This document shows positions 9,390-46,194 of a DNA stretch of 64,000 nt, one piece after another. Under the pieces are notes generated by a model. That model searched no databases and had not been told where the DNA came from. It worked only from the letters and a program-made list of their open reading frames with translations. Source of the DNA: Charina bottae (Eukaryota > Chordata > Lepidosauria > Squamata > Charinaidae); assembly GCA_023362775.1 (NCBI GenBank), contig JALMGJ010000017.1, positions 19,727,001-19,791,000 of the forward strand. Direction: 5' to 3'. Both the position numbers and the translations under genes were made by a program. Each line of letters begins with the position of its first letter. Positions within the stretch are counted from its first letter, which is position 1.

Positions 9390-9679
9390 GCCCTGAAAAG
9401 AATTATGCATTCTGATGCAATTTACTTTGTGGAGACGGAGGGGCAATTGTAATTTGTTTCAACGAGGCACTTTACATTGCCTCACCTGGCACTTAGAAAG
9501 CCAGAAGCTTTTCCATACACACTATGTATGCCCAGAATTCTCGTCAAGCCCTTGCAAGTCCTGGTTGAGACAGATTAAGAGAAGTATTATGTTCATTTCA
9601 CTTCACATTAAAAAGTGAAGGGGCTTCAAGGGGATGTTTTGCTCAAGCCTTCATCAAAGCAAAACGCCTCCTTGAGGAT
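9390..9679 (+). repeat. Unnamed dispersed repeat, copy 1
   Basis: It shares order and words with 26488-26845: a first block rich in CTTTG/GGAGGC motifs, then GCTTCAAGG, TTTTGCTCAA and CTTCATCAAAGC. It resumes at 9817 after the PLE fold-back inserted at 9680. I do not recognise the family. Confidence 0.45.
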
Positions 9680-9816
9680 GTCTATGAAGGTTCTCAGTCA
9701 TCCAGGTGGAATTGTCTGTAGCTTGAATCATGTCAACTGGATTTCTATTTTCTCAGTGGAGCGAAACGTTTCCACTGAGAAAATAGAAATCCAGTTGACA
9801 TGATTCAAGCTACAGA
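9680..9816 (+). mobile_element. PLE-C-derived fold-back element, copy 1
   Basis: A 137-bp insertion with a 12-bp TSD, CTCCTTGAGGAT (9668-9679 and 9817-9828). It holds two perfect 47-bp inverted arms (9714-9760 and 9771-9817, the last base shared with the TSD) around the 10-nt spacer GCGAAACGTT. The arms match the 3' untranslated region of the PLE-C family, and the leading 34 bases match the outermost PLE tail. The spacer is the GAAA end of the hammerhead core, and the arms begin just after the predicted cleavage base. The copy at 30695 is identical over the shared length, so mobilisation was recent or the source is homogeneous. Confidence 0.85.
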
Positions 9817-9833
9817 CTCCTTGAGGATCTGTA

Positions 9834-10151
9834 AAAAGTAAAGGTAAAGGTTCCCCCCGCACATTTGTGCAGTTGTGTCTGACTCTAGGGGCCGGTGCTC
9901 ATCTCCATTTGTTAGCTGAAGAGCCAGCGTTGTCCGAAGACGCCTCCGCGGTCATGTGGCCGGCATGATGCACGCGAAACGCTGTTACCTACCCACCAAA
10001 GTGGTACCTATTAATCTACTTGCCTTTGCATGCTTTCGAACTGCTAGGTTGGCAAGAGCTGGGGCGAGTGCGGGAGCTCACTCCGTCACGTGGGACTAGA
10101 GATTCGAACCTCCGAACTTGCGATCTTCCGATCGACAAGCCTGGAGTCTTA
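9834..10151 (-). mobile_element. tRNA-derived SINE, copy 1
   Basis: On the minus strand a tRNA-like head (B box GGTTCGAATC near 10093-10104) is followed by a body and a tail shared with copies at 19126 and 20740. A 12-bp TSD, TGAGGATCTGTA, flanks it (9822-9833 and 10152-10163). The BovB-like word near the tail is diverged in this copy (AGAGTCAGACACAACT). It inserted next to the PLE fold-back, partly reusing the same duplicated sequence. Confidence 0.85.
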
Positions 10152-19125: not shown

Positions 19126-19461
19126 GAGGGTCGTGTTGGCTCAGCGGGTAAGATGCCAGGCTTGTCGATCGGAAGATCGCAAGTTCAGAGGTTCGAACCC
19201 TAGCCCTGCGTGATGGAGTGAGCTCCTGCACTACCCCAGCTCTTGCCAACCTAGCAATTCAAAAGCATGCAAATGCAAGTAGATTAATAGGCACCACTTT
19301 GGTGGGAAGGTAACAGCATTCCGCGCGTGTCATGCCGGCCACATGACCATGGAAGCATCTTCGGACAACGCTGGCTCTTCGGCTAACAAACGGAGATGAG
19401 CACCGGCCCCTAGAGTCGGACACGACTGCACAAATGTGCAGGGGGAACCTTTACCTTTACC
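19126..19461 (+). mobile_element. tRNA-derived SINE, copy 2
   Basis: The tRNA-like head has an A-box-like TGGCTCAGCGGGTA at 19137-19150 and B box GGTTCGAACCC at 19190-19200. A body and a 3' tail of (CTTTAC) repeats follow. The 12-bp TSD is TACTGTATGTAT / TACTCTATGTAT (19114-19125 and 19462-19473). AGAGTCGGACACGACT at 19412-19427 matches the 3' end of the BovB copy at 57135-57150, which supports BovB as the retrotransposition partner. Confidence 0.92.
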
Positions 19462-20739: not shown

Positions 20740-21071
20740 AAAGGGGCATGCTGGCTCAGCGGGTAAGACGCCAGGCTTGTCGATTGGAAGATCGCAATTT
20801 CGGAGGTTCGAATCCCTAGTCCCGCATGACGGAGTGAGCTCCCGCACTAGCCCCAGCTCTTGCCAACCTAGCAATTTGAAAGCATGCAAATGCAAGTAGA
20901 TTAATAGGTACCACTTCGGTGGGTAGGTAACAGCATTCCGTGTGCGTCACGCGGCCACATGACCATGGAAGTTTCTTCGGACAACGCTGGCTCTTCGGCT
21001 AACAAACGGAGATGAGTACCAGCCCCTAGAGTCGGACACGACTGCACAAATGTGCAGGGGGAACCTTTACC
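20740..21071 (+). mobile_element. tRNA-derived SINE, copy 3
   Basis: Same family as 19126-19461, with B box GGTTCGAATCCC at 20805-20816 and the BovB-matching AGAGTCGGACACGACT at 21028-21043. The 13-bp TSD is TAGAGGTGCAGTA / TAGAGGTGTAGTA (20727-20739 and 21072-21084). Confidence 0.92.
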
Positions 21072-21084
21072 TAGAGGTGTAGTA

Positions 21085-30694: not shown

Positions 30695-30833
30695 GTCTAT
30701 GAAGGTTCTCAGTCATCCAGGTGGAATTGTCTGTAGCTTGAATCATGTCAACTGGATTTCTATTTTCTCAGTGGAGCGAAACGTTTCCACTGAGAAAATA
30801 GAAATCCAGTTGACATGATTCAAGCTACAGACA
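30695..30833 (+). mobile_element. PLE-C-derived fold-back element, copy 2
   Basis: Identical to 9680-9816 over the shared length, with 47-bp perfect arms at 30729-30775 and 30786-30832 around GCGAAACGTT. The flanks ATCCCTATAAAAAT (30679-) and ATCCCTAGAAAAAA (30834-) look like an imperfect TSD. The identity of two copies 21 kb apart shows this compact palindrome is itself the mobile unit. Confidence 0.85.
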
Positions 30834-36368: not shown

Positions 36369-38562
36369 CAGGGCTTTCCAAACTGTGTGTTGACACAATA
36401 CTGTGTCGCTGGGGCCCCCAAGTGTGTCGCGTGACAAGCCGGAAGCGCTGATGAAAATGCCCTCGGTTCTGGCAGGGAGGTGAAAATCGCGTGCGCGCGC
36501 GCTGCCAGGCCACCAGGAGTGGAAATTCTCCGCACCAATCAGCTGTGCGTCGGGAAGCCCGGCAGCCTGCACGCACGATTTTTGCCTCCCTGCCGGACCC
36601 GAGGGCATTTTCGGGGTCCCCGGAGTCTGCCCTTTCGAAGGGGCAGCACTGCTGCTGCTGCTGCCGCTGCCCCTTTGAAAGGGCAGGCTCCGGGGACCCC
36701 GAAAATGCCCTCGGTTCTGGCAGGGAGGCAAAAACCTCCCTTCCCCTCCCCGCACACGCTGCCCTGGAGTGGGGTGGAAGTTTTCCCCGCAGAACAGCTG
36801 AGCTCTGCTTGCGCGCAGCCTCCCTGCCTAAACTGAGGTGCTGCCCCTTCGAAAGGGCAGGCTCCGGGGACCCCGAAAATGCCCTCGGTTCTGGCAGGGA
36901 GGCAAAAGCCTCTCTTCCCCTCCCCGCACTCACAGGCTGCCCTGGAGTGGGGTGGAAGTTTTCCCCGCAGAACAGCTGAGCGCTGCTTGCGCGCAGCCTC
37001 CCTGCCTAAACTGAGGTGCTGCCCCTTCGAAAGGGCAGGCTCCGGGGACCCCGAAAATGCCCTCGGTTCTGGCAGGGAGGCAAAAGCCTCTCTTCCCCTC
37101 CCCGCACTCACAGGCTGCCCTGGAGTGGGGTGGAAGTTTTCCCCGCAGAACAGCTGAGCGCTGCTTGCGCGCAGCCTCCCTGCCTAAACTGAGGTGCTGC
37201 CCCTTCGAAAGGGCAGGCTCCGGGGACCCCGAAAATGCCCTCGGTTCTGGCAGGGAGGCAAAAGCCTTTCTTCCCCTCCCCGCACGCACACGCTGCCCTG
37301 GAGTGGGGTGGAAGTTTTCCCCGCAGAACAGCTGAGCGCTGCTTGCGCGCAGCCTCCCTGCCTAAACCGAGGTGCTGCCCCTTCAAAAGGGCAGGCTCCG
37401 GGGACCCCGAAAATGCCCTCGGTTCTGGCAGGGAGGCAAAAATTGCGCCTGCACGCTGCGGGGCTTCCCGGCGCACAGCTGATCAGCACAGAGAATTTCC
37501 ACCCCGTCCCCCCCCACCGTGCCAATCAGCTGTGCGTCGGGAAGCCGGCAGCCTGCACACGATTTTTGCCTCCCTGCTGGAACCGAGGGCATTTTCGCGG
37601 TCCCCGGAGCCTGCCCTTTCGAAGGGGCAGCACCTCAGTTTAGGCAGGGAGGCTGCGCGCAAGCAGCGCTCAGCTGTTCTGCGGGGAAAACTTCCACCCC
37701 ACTCCAGGGCAGCGTGTGCGTGCGGGGAGGGGAAGAGAGGCTTTTGCCTCCCTGCCAGAACCAAGGGCATTTTCGGGGTCCCCGGAGCCTGCCCTTTTGA
37801 AGGGGCAGCACCTCAGTTTAGGCAGGGAGGCTGCGCGCAAGCAGCGCTCAGCTGTTCTGCGGGGAAAACTTCCACCCCACTCCAGGGCAGCGTGTGCGTG
37901 CGGGGAGGGGAAGAGAGGCTTTTGCCTCCCTGCCAGAACCGAGGGCATTTTCGGGGTCCCCGGAGCCTGCCCTTTTGAAGGGGCAGCACCTCAGTTTAGG
38001 CAGGGAGGCTGCGCGCAAGCAGCGCTCAGCTGTTCTGCGGGGAAAACTTCCACCCCACTCCAGGGCAGCCTGTGCGTGCGGGGAGGGGAAGAGAGGCTTT
38101 TGCCTCCCTGCCGGAACCGAGGGCATTTTTGGGGTCCCCGGAGTCTGCCCTTTCGAAGGGGCAGCGGTGGTGGGCCATCAGTGCTTCCGGGTTCCAGGAC
38201 GCCGCTGCTGCCGCTGCCCCTTTGGAAGAGCAGGCTCTGGGGACCCCGAAAATGCCCTCGGTTCCAGCAGGAAGGCAAAAATCGCGCGCGCACGCTGCGG
38301 GGCTTCCCGGCGCACAGCTGATCAGCACAGAGAATTTCCACCCCGTCCCCCCCCACCGCGCCAATCAGCTGTGCGTCGGGAAGCCGGCAGCCTGCACGCG
38401 ATTTTTGCCTCCCTGCTGGAACCGAGGGCATTTTCGCGGTCCCCGGAGCCTGCCCTTTCGAAGGGGCAGCCATTGCCGCCGCAGCCACAACCGCCGGTGC
38501 TTCCAGGTTTTTGTGGGCTGGCCGTTGGTGTGTCGCCAACGGCAAAAGTTTGGAAAGCCCTG
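36369..38562 (+). mobile_element. Inner non-autonomous hAT with palindromic 178-bp array
   Basis: Terminal repeats are CAGGGCTTTCCAAACT at the left and AGTTTGGAAAGCCCTG at the right. The perfect 8-bp TSD CCTTAACC lies at 36361-36368 and 38563-38570. The interior is almost entirely a tandem array with an exact 178-bp period. One orientation covers the left half (unit marks at 36780, 36958, 37136, 37314) and the opposite orientation the right half (37691, 37869, 38047). It is symmetrical about 37502/37503. No coding capacity. Confidence 0.92.
36640..38140. repeat. 178-bp tandem units in two mirror-image blocks
   Basis: The word GTGGAAG recurs with a constant 178-bp step on the left, and its complement CTTCCAC with the same step on the right. 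Mirrored pairs sum to the same value, giving one symmetry centre at 37502.5. Smaller palindromes, such as that centred near 36660, sit at the ends. Confidence 0.9.
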
Positions 38563-39517: not shown

Positions 39518-40312
39518 TGTCAGATTTCTTATACTATATGATATTGGTAAATTGGATTTCTTTTCAAAGCAAAAGTGTTTTGGCAAATTGCATCTTTTAC
39601 AAAGCAAAGCAAAGCAAAGCAAAGCAAAGCATTCTCATGGTGACGTGAATGCCAGGTGGCTGGACAACAGAGAAGCCTTGGCTTTGTTTACGTCTTCATG
39701 AGATATGGAGCGAGAAGGTACCATATTATGGCTAGCAATGGAAATCTTCCCATGAGAGATATCCTCCTGATGACCTTCAGTGGGAAGCCTTGCCCATGCC
39801 CAAGCCCCCCCTGAGCAAGGAGGAGGGAGGAACTCAGTGCGTAGATGCAGCACTGCTAACCAATAGCAACTCATGCTGTGTGCTTTGAGGCCTAGTGTGT
39901 GTAACAGCTAACATCCAGCCAATCAGAATGCTAGAAGGTCTGAATATACAACCATGCAGAATGGTGTTCTATGTCTTCTTGATTTCTAGTGTCTTTAGCT
40001 ATGTAGTTCTTCACATGTTCACTTCCCGTGGACTGGGCAGAGTGAGCTATGCCTGGCTTTGGGTATAGGCCATGGCAGGAACTCTGGCCCTGGGATCAAT
40101 ACACGGAACTCTGCTTATAAGATTGTTTTGTTTTCCTTTTACAATGATGTATCCTGTATATTCATCTTTTGCATTTTTGCGATAATGTGATTGTATCTGC
40201 ATTATTGCCCTATGCTAAACAGTAAACACTGTTGGCCCTAACAAGCTGCATTCTTGTCTGTTTATTCTCAAGCCTCGGGTTTTTCCCCTTTAAGCCAGCA
40301 TATACCCCATCA
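39518..40312 (+). mobile_element. Solo LTR of the Ty1/copia family
   Basis: 795 bp starting TGTCAGATTTC and ending ACCCCATCA, flanked by the 5-bp TSD TGGTT (39513-39517 and 40313-40317). It matches the LTR at 50975-51681 throughout, apart from small indels such as the extra AAAGC units near 39605-39628. It resulted from recombination between the LTRs of a former full insertion in PLE-B. Confidence 0.9.
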
Positions 40313-40968
40313 TGGTTTAGGATGCTCACAGTTTCCTGGTTGAAAGTATGGTTAGGTCTGTCCATGTGTTGTGAGATTAAAGAGTTTTCATCGTGTCTTC
40401 TGACTGCTAGTTGGTGTTCGTGGATGCGTTCTGCTAGTCTTCTGCCGGTCTGTCCTACATAGTGGCTGTTACAGTCCTTACACTGTATGTTGTAGATAAC
40501 TCCTGTTTTTTTCTTCTTGGGCTACTGGGTCTTTTGGGTTACTTACGATATTCTGAAGGGTTTTGGTTGGTTTGTGTGCTACAGTGATGCCGTGTGGATG
40601 TAACAGTCTATTAGTAGTTTCTGAGATGTTTCTGATGTATGGCAGTGTAATCCTTTTCATAGCTTCTGTTGGTTTTGCTGTTGTGGGTTGAGTGGTCAGG
40701 CACTTTTTGATAAAGTTGCGTGGATATCCATTTTGCTGGAAGATGCTATATAAGTGGTCTGTTTCCTTTTTCTGGTGTTCTGGGTTGCTGCAATGCATTT
40801 GTGCTCGTCTGAATAGTGTTCTTACACAGCTCCTCTTGTGGGAGGTAGGGTTATTGCTTTGGTAGTGGAGCACTTGGTTAGTGTGGGTAGATTTCCAGTA
40901 GACTTGTGTTTCTAGAATGCCCTCATTTCCTCTACTGATGAGGATATCCAAGAAGGGTAGTGTGTTGT
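40313..40968 (-). pseudogene. PLE-B: reverse transcriptase end, linker and GIY-YIG start
   Basis: It reads MDILISRGNEGILETQVY at the right end (thumb region) and HYQSNNPTSHKRSCVRTLF, a PLE signature. The linker holds NGYPRNFIKKCL and ITLPYIRNISETTNRLL. A frameshift near 40500-40520 falls in an A-rich run and separates this from the GIY-YIG domain CKDCNSHYVGQTGRRLAE. QHMDRPNHTFNQETVSILN continues up to the solo LTR junction at 40313. Reverse transcriptase with GIY-YIG is diagnostic for PLEs. The core polymerase motifs are missing because of truncation. Confidence 0.88.
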
Positions 40969-41229
40969 TGTTTTTTTATATATTTTTTATTCAAATTTTA
41001 CAATATACATAGTTAAAAGTTAGAAACGAAACGAAAATAGAAATACAAATCAAAGAGAGAGAGAAAAAGGTGTAGAAAAGCAAAGCAAAGAAATAGAAAA
41101 ATAGAAAAAGGTATAGAAAGTAGTCGACTTCCGATCTATCTATGGTCATAAGAATACATAAAAAGAATTTTTCTTACATGCTAGCATTTGATATAATTTA
41201 CATATACATTTCTTGTCTAATATATTTTA

Positions 41230-43237
41230 TTATATAATATAATCATCAAAACCCCATGCGAGCTTTGCTCCGCCTGCATTTTGCAAATAGTCCATCAACG
41301 GTTTCCACTCTTTAAGATAGTAACGATTTGAATTTTCTTTTAGTAAACATATCAATTTATCATTTTCTGCCATATCCATTAATTTTAACATCCATTCTTG
41401 TATTGTTGGTAAAGTTTGATTTTTCCAATTTTGTGCATAAAGAAGTCTTGCTGCTGTATTCATGTATTGTGAAATTCTAATGAAGTGTTTCTCTGTTTGT
41501 ACATCTAATAGTCCAAGTAAAAATCTGTAGCCTGAATCATGTCAACTGGATTTCTATTTTCTCAGTGGAAACATTTCGCTCCTTATCCAAGGAGCTTCTT
41601 CAGTCTGAGCAAAGTTAGTAAGAGAATCCTAAATATGTTTCTAGGTAGCTGTGTGACCTTACACCTGGGGCTAGGTCATGGTTATATTGAGATGTTATTT
41701 TAAGTCCTTTTATCATCTAAAGGAGGATCGTTAAGATCACCATGCTAATATAACCATGACCTAGCCCCAGGTGTAAGGTCACACAGCTACCTAGAAACAT
41801 ATTTAGGATTCCCTTACTAACTTTGCTCAGACTGAAGAAGCTCCTTGGATAAGGAGCAAAACGTTTCCACTGAGAAAATAGAAATCCAGTTGACATGATT
41901 CAAGCTACAGACAATTCCACCTGGATGACTGAGAACCTTCATAGACATATATCCAAGTAAAAATATTTCTGGTTTAAATGGAATTCTTGTTTGTAGTATA
42001 TTTTGCATCAATGAGTGTATTTCAGTCCAAAATTTCTTTGCCACCTCACATGTCCACCACATGTGGTAAAAAGACCCCTCTTGTTTTTTACATTTCCAAC
42101 ATAAGTTGGAGACATTCCCATACATTTTAGCAAGTTTTTGTGGGGTCATGTACCACCTGTACATCATCTTATAAAAATTTTCCTTCAAATTGTAACACAG
42201 AGTGAATTTTAATCCTTTGTTCCACATATCTTCCCATTGTTGCATTTGAATATTATGTCCAATACTTTTTGCCCATTGAATCATTCAGTCTTTAACTTGT
42301 TCCTCCACCATTACTCCTTTTAACAGTAATTTATACATTTTAGAAATTAGGTGTTCATCTGTTTCACATAGTTGTATCTCAAACTCCGATTTAATTTGTT
42401 CAAATTCCAATTTTTTTTGTCTAATTTGAATTTCTCTATAAGTTGCATATAGGAAAGCCATTGAAAAGTATATCCTTCTTGAGCAAGTTCTTCTTTTGAT
42501 TTTGTTACATAATGCCCTTGTTCTTTTTTTAAAAAGTCCTTATAAGTCAGCCATTTATCTTTATTTCTTACTTCTGTTCTGTGAAATGCTTCTTGCGTAG
42601 AAATCCATAAGGGTCTCTTATAACATAAGGTCGGCTTGTATTTATTCCAAATTCTCAACAAAGATCTTCTAATATAATGATTTTTAAAGTCCACATTAAC
42701 TTTAGCTTTGTCATACCATAAATATCCATGCCATCCAAATCTTAATTCCTGACCCTCCAAATTCAATAATTTTTCATTTTTCAGAACAATCCATTCTTTA
42801 AGCCATACCAAACCACAAGCCGCATGATATAATTTCAAGTCCGGGAGGCCTAAGCCACCTCTTTCTTTTGAATCTTGTAGAACTTTATATTTTATTCTTG
42901 GTTTTTTCCCTTGCCAGATAAACTTGGAAATATCCCTCTGCCATTGTTTAAATGGTTCCTCTGATGTCAAGATAGGTAGTGTTTGAAAAAGGTATAAGAT
43001 TCGTGGTAAGATATTCTTTTTGATCGCCGATATTCTACCTAATAATGATAATTGCAATTTTATCCATCTATCTAGGTCTTTTTTAATATCTGTCCAAAGT
43101 GGAATATAATTATTCTTAAATAATTTGACATTTTTAGATGTTAAATATATTCCCAAATATTTTACTTTTTTCTCCATAGAATAACCCATCATTTCTCTCA
43201 ATTTCTCTTGTTGATGGTAATCCATATTTTTAGTCAA
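41230..43237 (-). pseudogene. L1 ORF2 C-terminal region with cysteine motif
   Basis: The first frame (43237-42347) has KVKYLGIYLTSKNVK, SLLGRISAIKKNILPRILYL and FIWQGKKPRIKYKVLQDSKE. The second (42284-41965) contains NLCWKCKKQEGSFYHMWWTC, the C-x2-C-x6-H-x4-C motif typical of L1 ORF2 ends. The PLE fold-back at 41525 interrupts it. The last piece runs from 41511 to GFDDYII at 41230. The remaining 250 bases are 3' UTR. Confidence 0.9.
41525..41951 (+). mobile_element. Long PLE-C fold-back inserted in L1
   Basis: A 427-bp insertion with the 13-bp TSD TCCAAGTAAAAAT (41512-41524 and 41952-41964). The left arm is antisense PLE-C 3' sequence, starting CTGTAGCCTGAATCATG and running past the hammerhead into the end of the coding region (near 41735). 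The right arm is sense, starting inside the 3' UTR (CTAATATAACC) and running to the outermost tail GAACCTTCATAGAC. Arms of almost 200 bp pair with few mismatches. It is thus an inverted dimer of a PLE 3' end. Confidence 0.88.
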
Positions 43238-44575: not shown

Positions 44576-45122
44576 ATAAGCTTTGCTAGTATCCCAGACA
44601 ATTTGAGTACTAGTACCCTTATTTAAATTCAGTAAAAAATATTCTCTTAACCTTTTCTTACATATATCTACAATATCCTCTTTCCGAAAAATTGACTCAC
44701 TTAATCTCCATCGAAATACATTCCTTTTCCCTTGATAGTTAGCAATACAGGATTATGATCTGAGAAAGATTTAGGTAATATTTCAACCTTATTAACATCC
44801 ATCATTAAACTTTTAGAAATCAAGAACATATCTATTCTGGAAAATGATTTATACCTCTCTGAATAATATGTATATTCTTTAGAGTTCCCATTTATAAGTC
44901 TCGAAATATCTTATAAGTCCAACATGTCTTTCAAATAAAAAAATGTTTGGGGTAGTTTTCCCTGTGTAGGTTTCACATTTTTTTGTGAGTGTCTATCTTC
45001 CATTGGGAGAATCACCCCATTCCAGTCACCCATAAAACACCAATTCTCATATGATAAATCCAAAAGTTTATCCATCAAATAATCCTTTATTGAAGTTTGG
45101 AGCATAAAGTCCAACCATCAAT

Positions 45123-46119
45123 CTGTGGCTTGAATCATGTCAACTGGATTTCTATTTTCTTAGTGGAAACGTTTCACTCCTTATCCAAGGAGCTTCTTCA
45201 GTCTGAGTAAAGTTAGTAAGGGAATCCTTAAATATGTTTCTAGGCTGGCTGTGTGACCTTGCACCTGGGGCTAGGTCATGGTTATTTTTGAGATGTTTGT
45301 TTCTAAGTCCCTTTATCATCTAAAGGAGGATCGTTAAGATTACCCTGCTGCTGTTGAGCTTGTGAAATGGTCTTAATCTTCCTAGGCACAGAAGACAAAG
45401 CAGGAAGGAAGATAGGGGAAAGGTTATGCCTGAGGCCCCCACCTCTATTCAAGGAAGGATTTTCCAAGTTGGCATGAATGGATTCCTTGACCCCTCTCTC
45501 AAACCACCTATCTTCTCTGTCTAAAATGTGAACATTAATGTCCTCAAATGAGTGTCCTTTTTCCTTTAGATGAAGATAAACTGCTGACTCTGGTCCTGTG
45601 GTGTTACTTCTCCTGTGTTGGGCCATCCTCCTGTACAAAGGTTGTTTGGTTTCTCCAATGTAGAGTTCAGAGCACTCCTCACTGCACTGGATTGCATACA
45701 CTACATTGCTTTCCTTGTGTTTTGGAGTTTGATCTTTGGGGTGTACAAGCCTCTGTCTCAGTGTGTTGGTGGGTTTGAAATATACAGGTATGTGGTGTTT
45801 GCCAAATATCCGTTTGATCTTTTCAGACACGCCAGCCATGTAAGGAATGACCAGGTTCTTCCGTTTACTCTGAGTCTCAGCCCTATCTGTCGCTGTTTTA
45901 GGTCTGGTAGACTTAGATTTGGTGAAGGCCCAATTTGGATATCCACAGGCCTGCAGAGCTGTTCTCAGATGCTGCTTTTCATTCTTTTTGGAATCCATGG
46001 AGGTGGGGATGGTTTCTGCTCTGTGTGACAATGTCCTGATGACTCCTAGTTTGTGCTGCAGTGGATGGTGGGAGTCAAACATCAGGTATTGATCTGTGTG
46101 TGTGGGTTTCCTGTAGATT
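45123..46119 (-). mobile_element. Penelope-like element C, 5'-truncated
   Basis: A 997-bp insertion in L1 with the 13-bp TSD TCCAACCATCAAT (45110-45122 and 46120-46132). It contains the PLE thumb/linker, GIY-YIG domain, stop, and a 3' UTR with a hammerhead motif. It ends at CAAGCCACAG on the minus strand, without the additional tail seen in the fold-backs. Confidence 0.92.
45160..45207 (-). ncRNA. Predicted hammerhead-type motif in PLE-C 3' UTR
   Basis: On the minus strand CTCAGA (45207-45202) leads into the core CTGAAGA (45201-45195). Stem II is GCTCCTT/AAGGAGT with loop GGAT, then GAA (45175-45173), the self-complementary ACGT as minimal stem III, and U17 at 45168. TCCACTAAG follows and partly repairs with CTCAGA to form stem I. 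All core bases fit CUGANGA...GAAA. One substitution weakens stem I in this copy. The sense copy in the 41525-41951 fold-back lost G12, while its antisense arm kept it. Confidence 0.6.
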
Positions 46120-46124
46120 TCCAA
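45303..46124 (-). pseudogene. PLE-C protein: linker and GIY-YIG endonuclease (truncated)
   Basis: The frame is open over 273 codons. It begins at the 5' truncation with EIYRKPTHTDQYLMFDSHHP (a PLE signature after the reverse transcriptase) and continues with ACGYPNWAF, VIPYMAGVSEKIKRIF and FKPTNTLRQRLVHPKD. GIY-YIG follows: NVVYAIQCSEECSELYIGET, then RRMAQHRR and HLKEKGHSFED. The tail is WFERGVKESIHANLENPSLN and a basic/glutamine-rich end. GIY-YIG nicks DNA to prime integration of PLEs. No internal stop is seen, so the copy is young, but the polymerase core is missing. The first residue is set by the TSD junction, not a true start. Confidence 0.9.
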
Positions 46125-46194
46125 CCATCAATGTTTCAGTCCCTTGTATATTAACTTCCACTGCAATGTATCTTCCTTCATCATCAGTCAAAAG

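Follow-up and report, generated by a model that had tools for sequence, protein, structure and literature searches.

Inserts of Penelope-like elements (PLEs) of the Penelope/Poseidon type, as described for Pen2a of Adineta vaga (PMC3846280) and PAc of the anole (PMC11167929), are head-to-head partial copies with a single tail of 30–40 nt, a target duplication and palindromes at the inverted join, and the elements themselves carry a hammerhead. For rotifer PLEs, an inverted pLTR with an optional tail has been described, and the palindromes at the join were read as self-priming (PMC3846280). For the anole PLE, both target strands are reported to be cut and extended; reverse transcription is reported to start at two adjacent sites that bound the 30–40 nt tail, one of them at ORF positions 111–118 (about 82–89 past the cut by our own count); and the in vitro system requires the first 172 nt of the ORF (PMC11167929). 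Retrozymes, to the extent that PMC6155905 relays PMC4918200, are small non-autonomous elements tied to a hammerhead.

We analyzed a stretch of 64,000 nt from Charina bottae (hereafter the window), which contains at 9680–9816 a hairpin with the head-to-head form, single tail, target duplication and palindromic join of these PLE inserts, derived like them from a PLE bearing a hammerhead. Unlike them, it is made up solely of two 3′ ends (137 nt) with neither ORF nor pLTR body, and it recurs with the same junction at many loci; unlike retrozymes, to which its small size and its tie to a hammerhead relate it, it has neither a complete hammerhead nor LTRs. Twin-primed or inverted LINE insertions also consist of two cDNAs of opposite orientation joined by microhomology, a configuration that the hairpin resembles; the differences are that the PLE has two internal start regions and that the hairpin product recurs as a family. 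Searches of the open-licence literature listed no description of a compact, fixed-centre family of PLE hairpins.

Structure of the hairpin and its surroundings

The sequence-only reading of the window had proposed a palindrome with perfect 47-bp arms, and the two arms (9714–9760 and 9771–9817, 47 nt each, 10 nt apart) are indeed 100% complementary. Alignment to PLE ends identifies them as the PLE 3′ region in opposite orientations, in the order antisense tail and 3′ region (9680–9760), loop GCGAAACGTT (10 nt, 9761–9770) and sense 3′ region without tail (9771–9816). The same reading had interpreted this as two PLE 3′ ends of unequal length joined head to head, apparently a product of reverse transcription, and we concur. 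A 12-bp target-site duplication, CTCCTTGAGGAT, delimits an insert of 137 nt with the limits already given by that reading, and since its right copy starts at 9817, the outermost arm pair uses the first base of the duplication. The features of the hairpin and of the related PLE sequences in the window are listed below.

9668–9679, plus strand: left target-site duplication CTCCTTGAGGAT, from the window sequence
9680–9713, minus strand: antisense PLE 3′ ‘tail’ of 34 nt, covering +48 to +81 relative to the predicted hammerhead cut, from alignment to PLE ends
9714–9760, minus strand: left arm, PLE +47 to +1, antisense, stopping at the predicted cleavage base
9758–9760, plus strand: GGA, 3-nt microhomology at the join, present in the left arm and in the native sequence before GCGAAACGTT, from the sequence
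9761–9770, plus strand: loop GCGAAACGTT, the ten bases that precede the predicted cut, comprising the core and the end of hammerhead stem II
9771–9816, plus strand: tail-less right arm in sense orientation, PLE +1 to +46 (the 47th pair draws on the first base of the duplication)
9817–9828, plus strand: right target-site duplication
30695–30832, plus strand: second hairpin, identical over 138 nt, with the imperfect duplication ATCCCTA(T/G)AAAAA
41525–41951, plus strand: ordinary fold-back of a PLE, its antisense arm spanning +46 to −177 and its tail-bearing sense arm −119 to +86
41512–41524 and 41952–41964: duplication TCCAAGTAAAAAT of that fold-back, 12 bases by script and the last by eye
45108–46127, minus strand: PLE copy without tail, with a GIY-YIG-type ORF (45303–46127, labelled from reading the translation) and a hammerhead (45169–45201)

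Other repeats and reading frames lie in the same window. An interspersed repeat at 9838–10151 directly adjoins the hairpin and is also present at 19234–19460 and 20764–21072 in inverse orientation (90–92% alike). At 36516–38472, 178-bp tandem repeats form a large inverted repeat with arms of up to 604 nt (98%), and the minus strand at 40210–40975 holds another PLE-like GIY-YIG frame, distinct in type and likewise labelled from reading the translation.

A genome-wide family with a constant junction

The genome searched comprised 1.80 Gb in 278 contigs, and all hairpin copy numbers given here are lower bounds. A 301-nt query gave 1358 first-look candidates, among the best 40 of which 39 matched at 98–100% and one (L003) at 78% over a longer gapped stretch; a tail-neutral 64-nt junction query gave 215 first-look candidates, and the best 40, which were scored, all matched at 100%. 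At least 71 loci carry the junction of the window hairpin, a count that excludes six collected stretches duplicating others (L001, L030, L092, L093, L098 and L099) and two loci with related centres (L157 and L163). With 71 collected loci sharing its junction, the window palindrome is not a chance arrangement.

Of 57 hairpins, 55 carry duplications of their own when one mismatch is permitted (10–19 bp, all 55 distinct), and under a strict rule exact duplications of 10–15 bp were found in 38 of 40. One of the two hairpins that miss an adjacent duplication, L096, has one further out. The tail is confined to one arm at all 71 loci. In the first 53 hairpins, minus L080 and L083, tail-side ends fall at +78 to +86 and tail-less ends at +43 to +51 from the cut; in L080 and L083 the tail lies on the opposite arm and the junction is unchanged. 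These narrow zones, combined with a constant junction, indicate that the outer ends are set anew and the junction is fixed, and the two zones are as expected if synthesis began at the PLE internal start sites. We disfavour a DNA-level origin, in which a transposase would have mobilized a MITE-like fold-back. Such an element would share the inverted arms and the target duplications, but a tail on one arm only, ends that vary by several bases within two zones, arms made of PLE sequence and duplications of varying length make such an element hardly credible.

Position +7 is identical between the arms at every one of the 71 loci (GAG/GAG in 61, AAG/AAG in 10), and the loop haplotype is GC in 64 and GT in 7. 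The arm bearing the tail is the one that ends at the predicted cut in 69 of the 71 loci, 40 of which were retrieved with a query of the majority tail polarity; the tail-neutral 64-nt junction query gave 38 versus 2 among 40 loci.

The junction and the predicted hammerhead cut

The native PLE 3′ end, taken from L036 elsewhere in the genome, reads CTGAAGA-AGCTCC-TTGGATAA-GGAGC-GAAACGTT/TCCACTGAG, the slash marking the predicted cut. Three window copies resemble it with few changes, and the native sequence, slightly altered, is visible in the fold-back at 41525–41951 and in the minus-strand PLE copy at 45108–46127. In the anole PLE, the hammerhead is reported to be cut after GAAACGUC (PMC11167929), our own count placing the cut within the printed sequence, so that the right arm in the window begins at the base after the predicted cut, in agreement with the sequence-only reading. 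GGA ends both the left arm and the native sequence before GCGAAACGTT, which leaves four possible positions for the true join, the cleavage point among them. The hairpin itself lacks a complete hammerhead: its loop keeps GAAACGTT, but neither CTGAAGA nor the 5′ side of stem II is present. Rfam at gathering scores yielded no match in the window, and it also misses the window's longer PLE hammerheads.

From the coincidence of arm and cut, the earlier reading had derived a ribozyme origin for the boundary. Hairpins would then form anew from self-cleaved PLE RNA, a tail-primed cDNA stopping at UCCACUGAG and being joined to a longer tail-less cDNA, a scenario that we regard as possible and rather unlikely. 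The hairpin edge does coincide exactly with the predicted cut. The 69 tail arms that end there would also be expected, though inheritance by copying could give the same result, and the junction occurs with four arm/loop haplotype combinations and several tail haplotypes. Three composite centres described below have tail arms that end, by our own reading, at +2 (L160), +1 (L164) and −2/−3 (L161). The study of the anole PLE bears on both sides, reporting that the hammerhead is cut only with the PLE protein present, but also that hammerhead mutants insert normally in vitro and that RNA-seq ends at the cut were not found (PMC11167929).

Ordinary PLE inserts serve as a comparison. Forty natives were picked by their match to −119 to +86, a choice that leaves native tail arms unable to end at +1, and 39 were fetched. 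Queries made of the tail alone gave no match, probably because their words are too common, so the tail arms compared here are not an unbiased sample. Within the fetched stretches, 22 of the 39 are head-to-head fold-backs, and the other 17 showed no adjacent second arm. The tail-less arm typically ends near +43 to +52 and the tail arm near +84 to +86; one fold-back, L074, bears two tails. Their inner ends range from +15 to beyond −600, with overlaps of up to 11 nt and gaps of up to 49, and their centres are scattered. Two of them at different sites, L032 and L049, have a common join at −185/−200 and tails on opposite arms.

Of 41 junction rows outside the family, a single one places an arm end in the interval from +3 to −3 around the cut; some of the 41 (L036, L043, L072, the second row of L101 and L125) represent short matches and not complete joins. 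The 41 rows combine 24 of the 26 first-set rows, the other two belonging to the window hairpin family, with 17 from 28 loci. The 24-row set, from which loci fetched as hairpins were excluded and in which most tail arms were preselected to extend past the cut, contributes none. The 17-row set contributes L116, whose tail arm ends between +2 and −1 and is joined to −127, as run-off at the cut would allow, and L105 has an arm end at +4. Such scatter argues against run-off from self-cleaved RNA. An excess of arm ends at −12 was considered as a biological hot spot and rejected, since the probe carried AGAGTGAAACG and so selected such ends.

The GGA match suggests a second explanation for an arm edge at the predicted cut. 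In the TCTACTGAG subfamily, the hammerhead core is the same and the GGA match is lost; none of its 28 candidates, all scored, has the junction, and the typed probe gave no full-length match above 74%, a result that also counts against run-off. A TCCACTAAG probe, which keeps GGA, gave among the best 40 of 43 candidates full-length matches at 100% (three), 99% (four) and 97% (one), and further matches at 82–90% with altered centres. The junction thus goes with the microhomology; since the two forms also differ at +7, their copy numbers may be unequal and copies may be inherited, the contrast between the probes is suggestive, not decisive.

A GGA requirement would also follow if a single cDNA with the 3′ end TCC, copied from −13 to −11, folded onto its own GGA (+3 to +1) and copied itself, leaving the 10-nt loop. 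Such a snap-back accounts for the perfect arms and the loop as well. A self-copied arm should, however, end like its template, yet the arms differ by the tail, which at 69 of the 71 loci sits on the would-be copy arm, and we consider this route improbable.

Of the proposed ribozyme origin, the location of the boundary at the predicted cut is supported; given the GGA ambiguity and the scattered relatives, the cut is a possible cause of the hairpin edge, not a demonstrated one. Mapping arm boundaries against the cut across copies, which the same reading had advised, gave a constant position within the family and, in the 41 other fold-back rows, the scatter that this reading had named as refuting it, with yet another centre at −34/−35.

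Possible re-copying of hairpins and a second fold point

In L096 (C212:3.33 Mb), the hairpin is accompanied by 147 nt that are 97% identical to the flank of L097 (C212:12.12 Mb) on the tail-less side, or 98% over 291 nt with the hairpin included. The tail-side flanks of the two loci have no collinear match, and L097 has its own 13-bp duplication, TGCCAGGTTTCTG (by eye). Beyond the shared flank, L096 runs on into a 35-nt piece that matches sequence flanking a PLE on C35, then a PLE tail and a further fold-back; it ends in CCTTGGAAGAAC, which is also found left of the hairpin, and the insert (817–1544) lies inside one 12-bp duplication. This composite insertion relates to L097 and L100. We read it as a single insertion that may have been built from the RNAs of two loci by template jumping. 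Splicing was considered as the source of the 35-nt piece, which is exon-like and stands beside a splice-acceptor-like AG, but was rejected because the piece matches the C35 PLE flank and no donor is present.

Three further loci (L160, L161 and L164) have a second CTYAGTGGA-GYGAAAC piece after a complete or nearly complete left arm, which suggests composite centres made as if one cDNA had read a hairpin RNA. One flank-carrying copy and three composite centres suggest that hairpin RNAs are re-copied, which would make the family a candidate SINE-like repeat propagated through the RNA of earlier copies; identical junctions would then not require many ribozyme events. A collinear shared flank was found for one pair only among 57 hairpins, and since the tail haplotypes of that pair differ (TG in L096, AA in L097), the template chain is not simple.

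A second hairpin, also a near-perfect palindrome of PLE 3′ ends, folds 34–35 nt upstream of the hammerhead cut and is apparently more abundant than the +1 hairpin. The join of L108, used as a control query, gave 968 candidates, of which the best 40 matched at 98–100%; contig C1 holds 29 of these 40, versus 8 of the 40 from the 64-nt junction query. The twenty copies that were fetched are palindromes with a single base at −35 as their centre; their arms begin at C3 of the hammerhead core (−34 by our own count), and 19 of the 20 have a duplication (one weak). The 22 copies (L129–L148, L108 and L109) comprise two arm haplotypes, the arms being concordant at the distinguishing sites within each copy except L132, and divide 15 versus 7 in tail polarity. 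A further variant present on one arm only in L108, L109 and L129 might come from two template RNAs or have been inherited. The −35 centre would result if a pair of cDNAs ran off a single RNA 5′ end at that position, and because such an end lies upstream of the cut, the template there would have been uncleaved RNA. That another hairpin folds at −34/−35 weighs against run-off at the cut.

We hold with moderate confidence that the window hairpin is a minimal non-autonomous Penelope-like insertion made by two-strand priming and GGA/TCC joining, with later re-copying of hairpin RNA. At a staggered target cut, both strands would prime reverse transcription at the two internal start regions of the PLE, the tail arm arising from one region and the tail-less arm from the other. 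The short cDNAs would converge in the hammerhead region, where GGA/TCC would mediate their joining, and the product would be a palindrome flanked by target duplications, mostly of 12–15 bp. The same head-to-head arrangement with a single tail is frequent among ordinary PLE inserts, whose joins overlap by up to 11 nt or are gapped. The transcribed hairpin could then itself serve as template, both new cDNAs starting on the tail-bearing arm, so that arms and junction would be inherited, the arms kept identical and the outer ends set afresh. We infer two-strand priming in vivo, microhomology joining and the descent of most copies from hairpin RNA rather than from intact PLE RNA.

Synthesis of both cDNAs from the tail-bearing arm of a hairpin RNA would explain the arm agreement at +7 with no need for numerous origins; repeated formation from PLE RNA fits that concordance as well. 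Tail polarity counts against the preferred account, for a free choice of start site on each strand would place the tail equally, whereas 69 versus 2 was observed. Copying could preserve polarity, and fits these numbers only if the junction comes mostly from tail-primed cDNA; run-off from self-cleaved RNA would create it. The 172 nt needed in the anole system exceed the content of the hairpin, so that hairpin RNA alone may be a poor template, which speaks against re-copying.

A broader proposal, which we advance tentatively and consider less likely than not, is that PLEs continually spin off self-homogenizing, RNA-copied palindromes, both arms being rewritten in each round from one tail-bearing arm. 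The fold point would then be the 5′ end of the founding template RNA, set by self-cleavage for the +1 family and corresponding to another RNA 5′ end at −35 for the larger one. The hairpins touch on how PLEs finish integration and on the purpose of their conserved hammerhead. Many near-identical, precisely ended hairpins with at least two fold points form a record of where cDNAs stop and how they are joined, with which the role of self-cleavage becomes directly testable.
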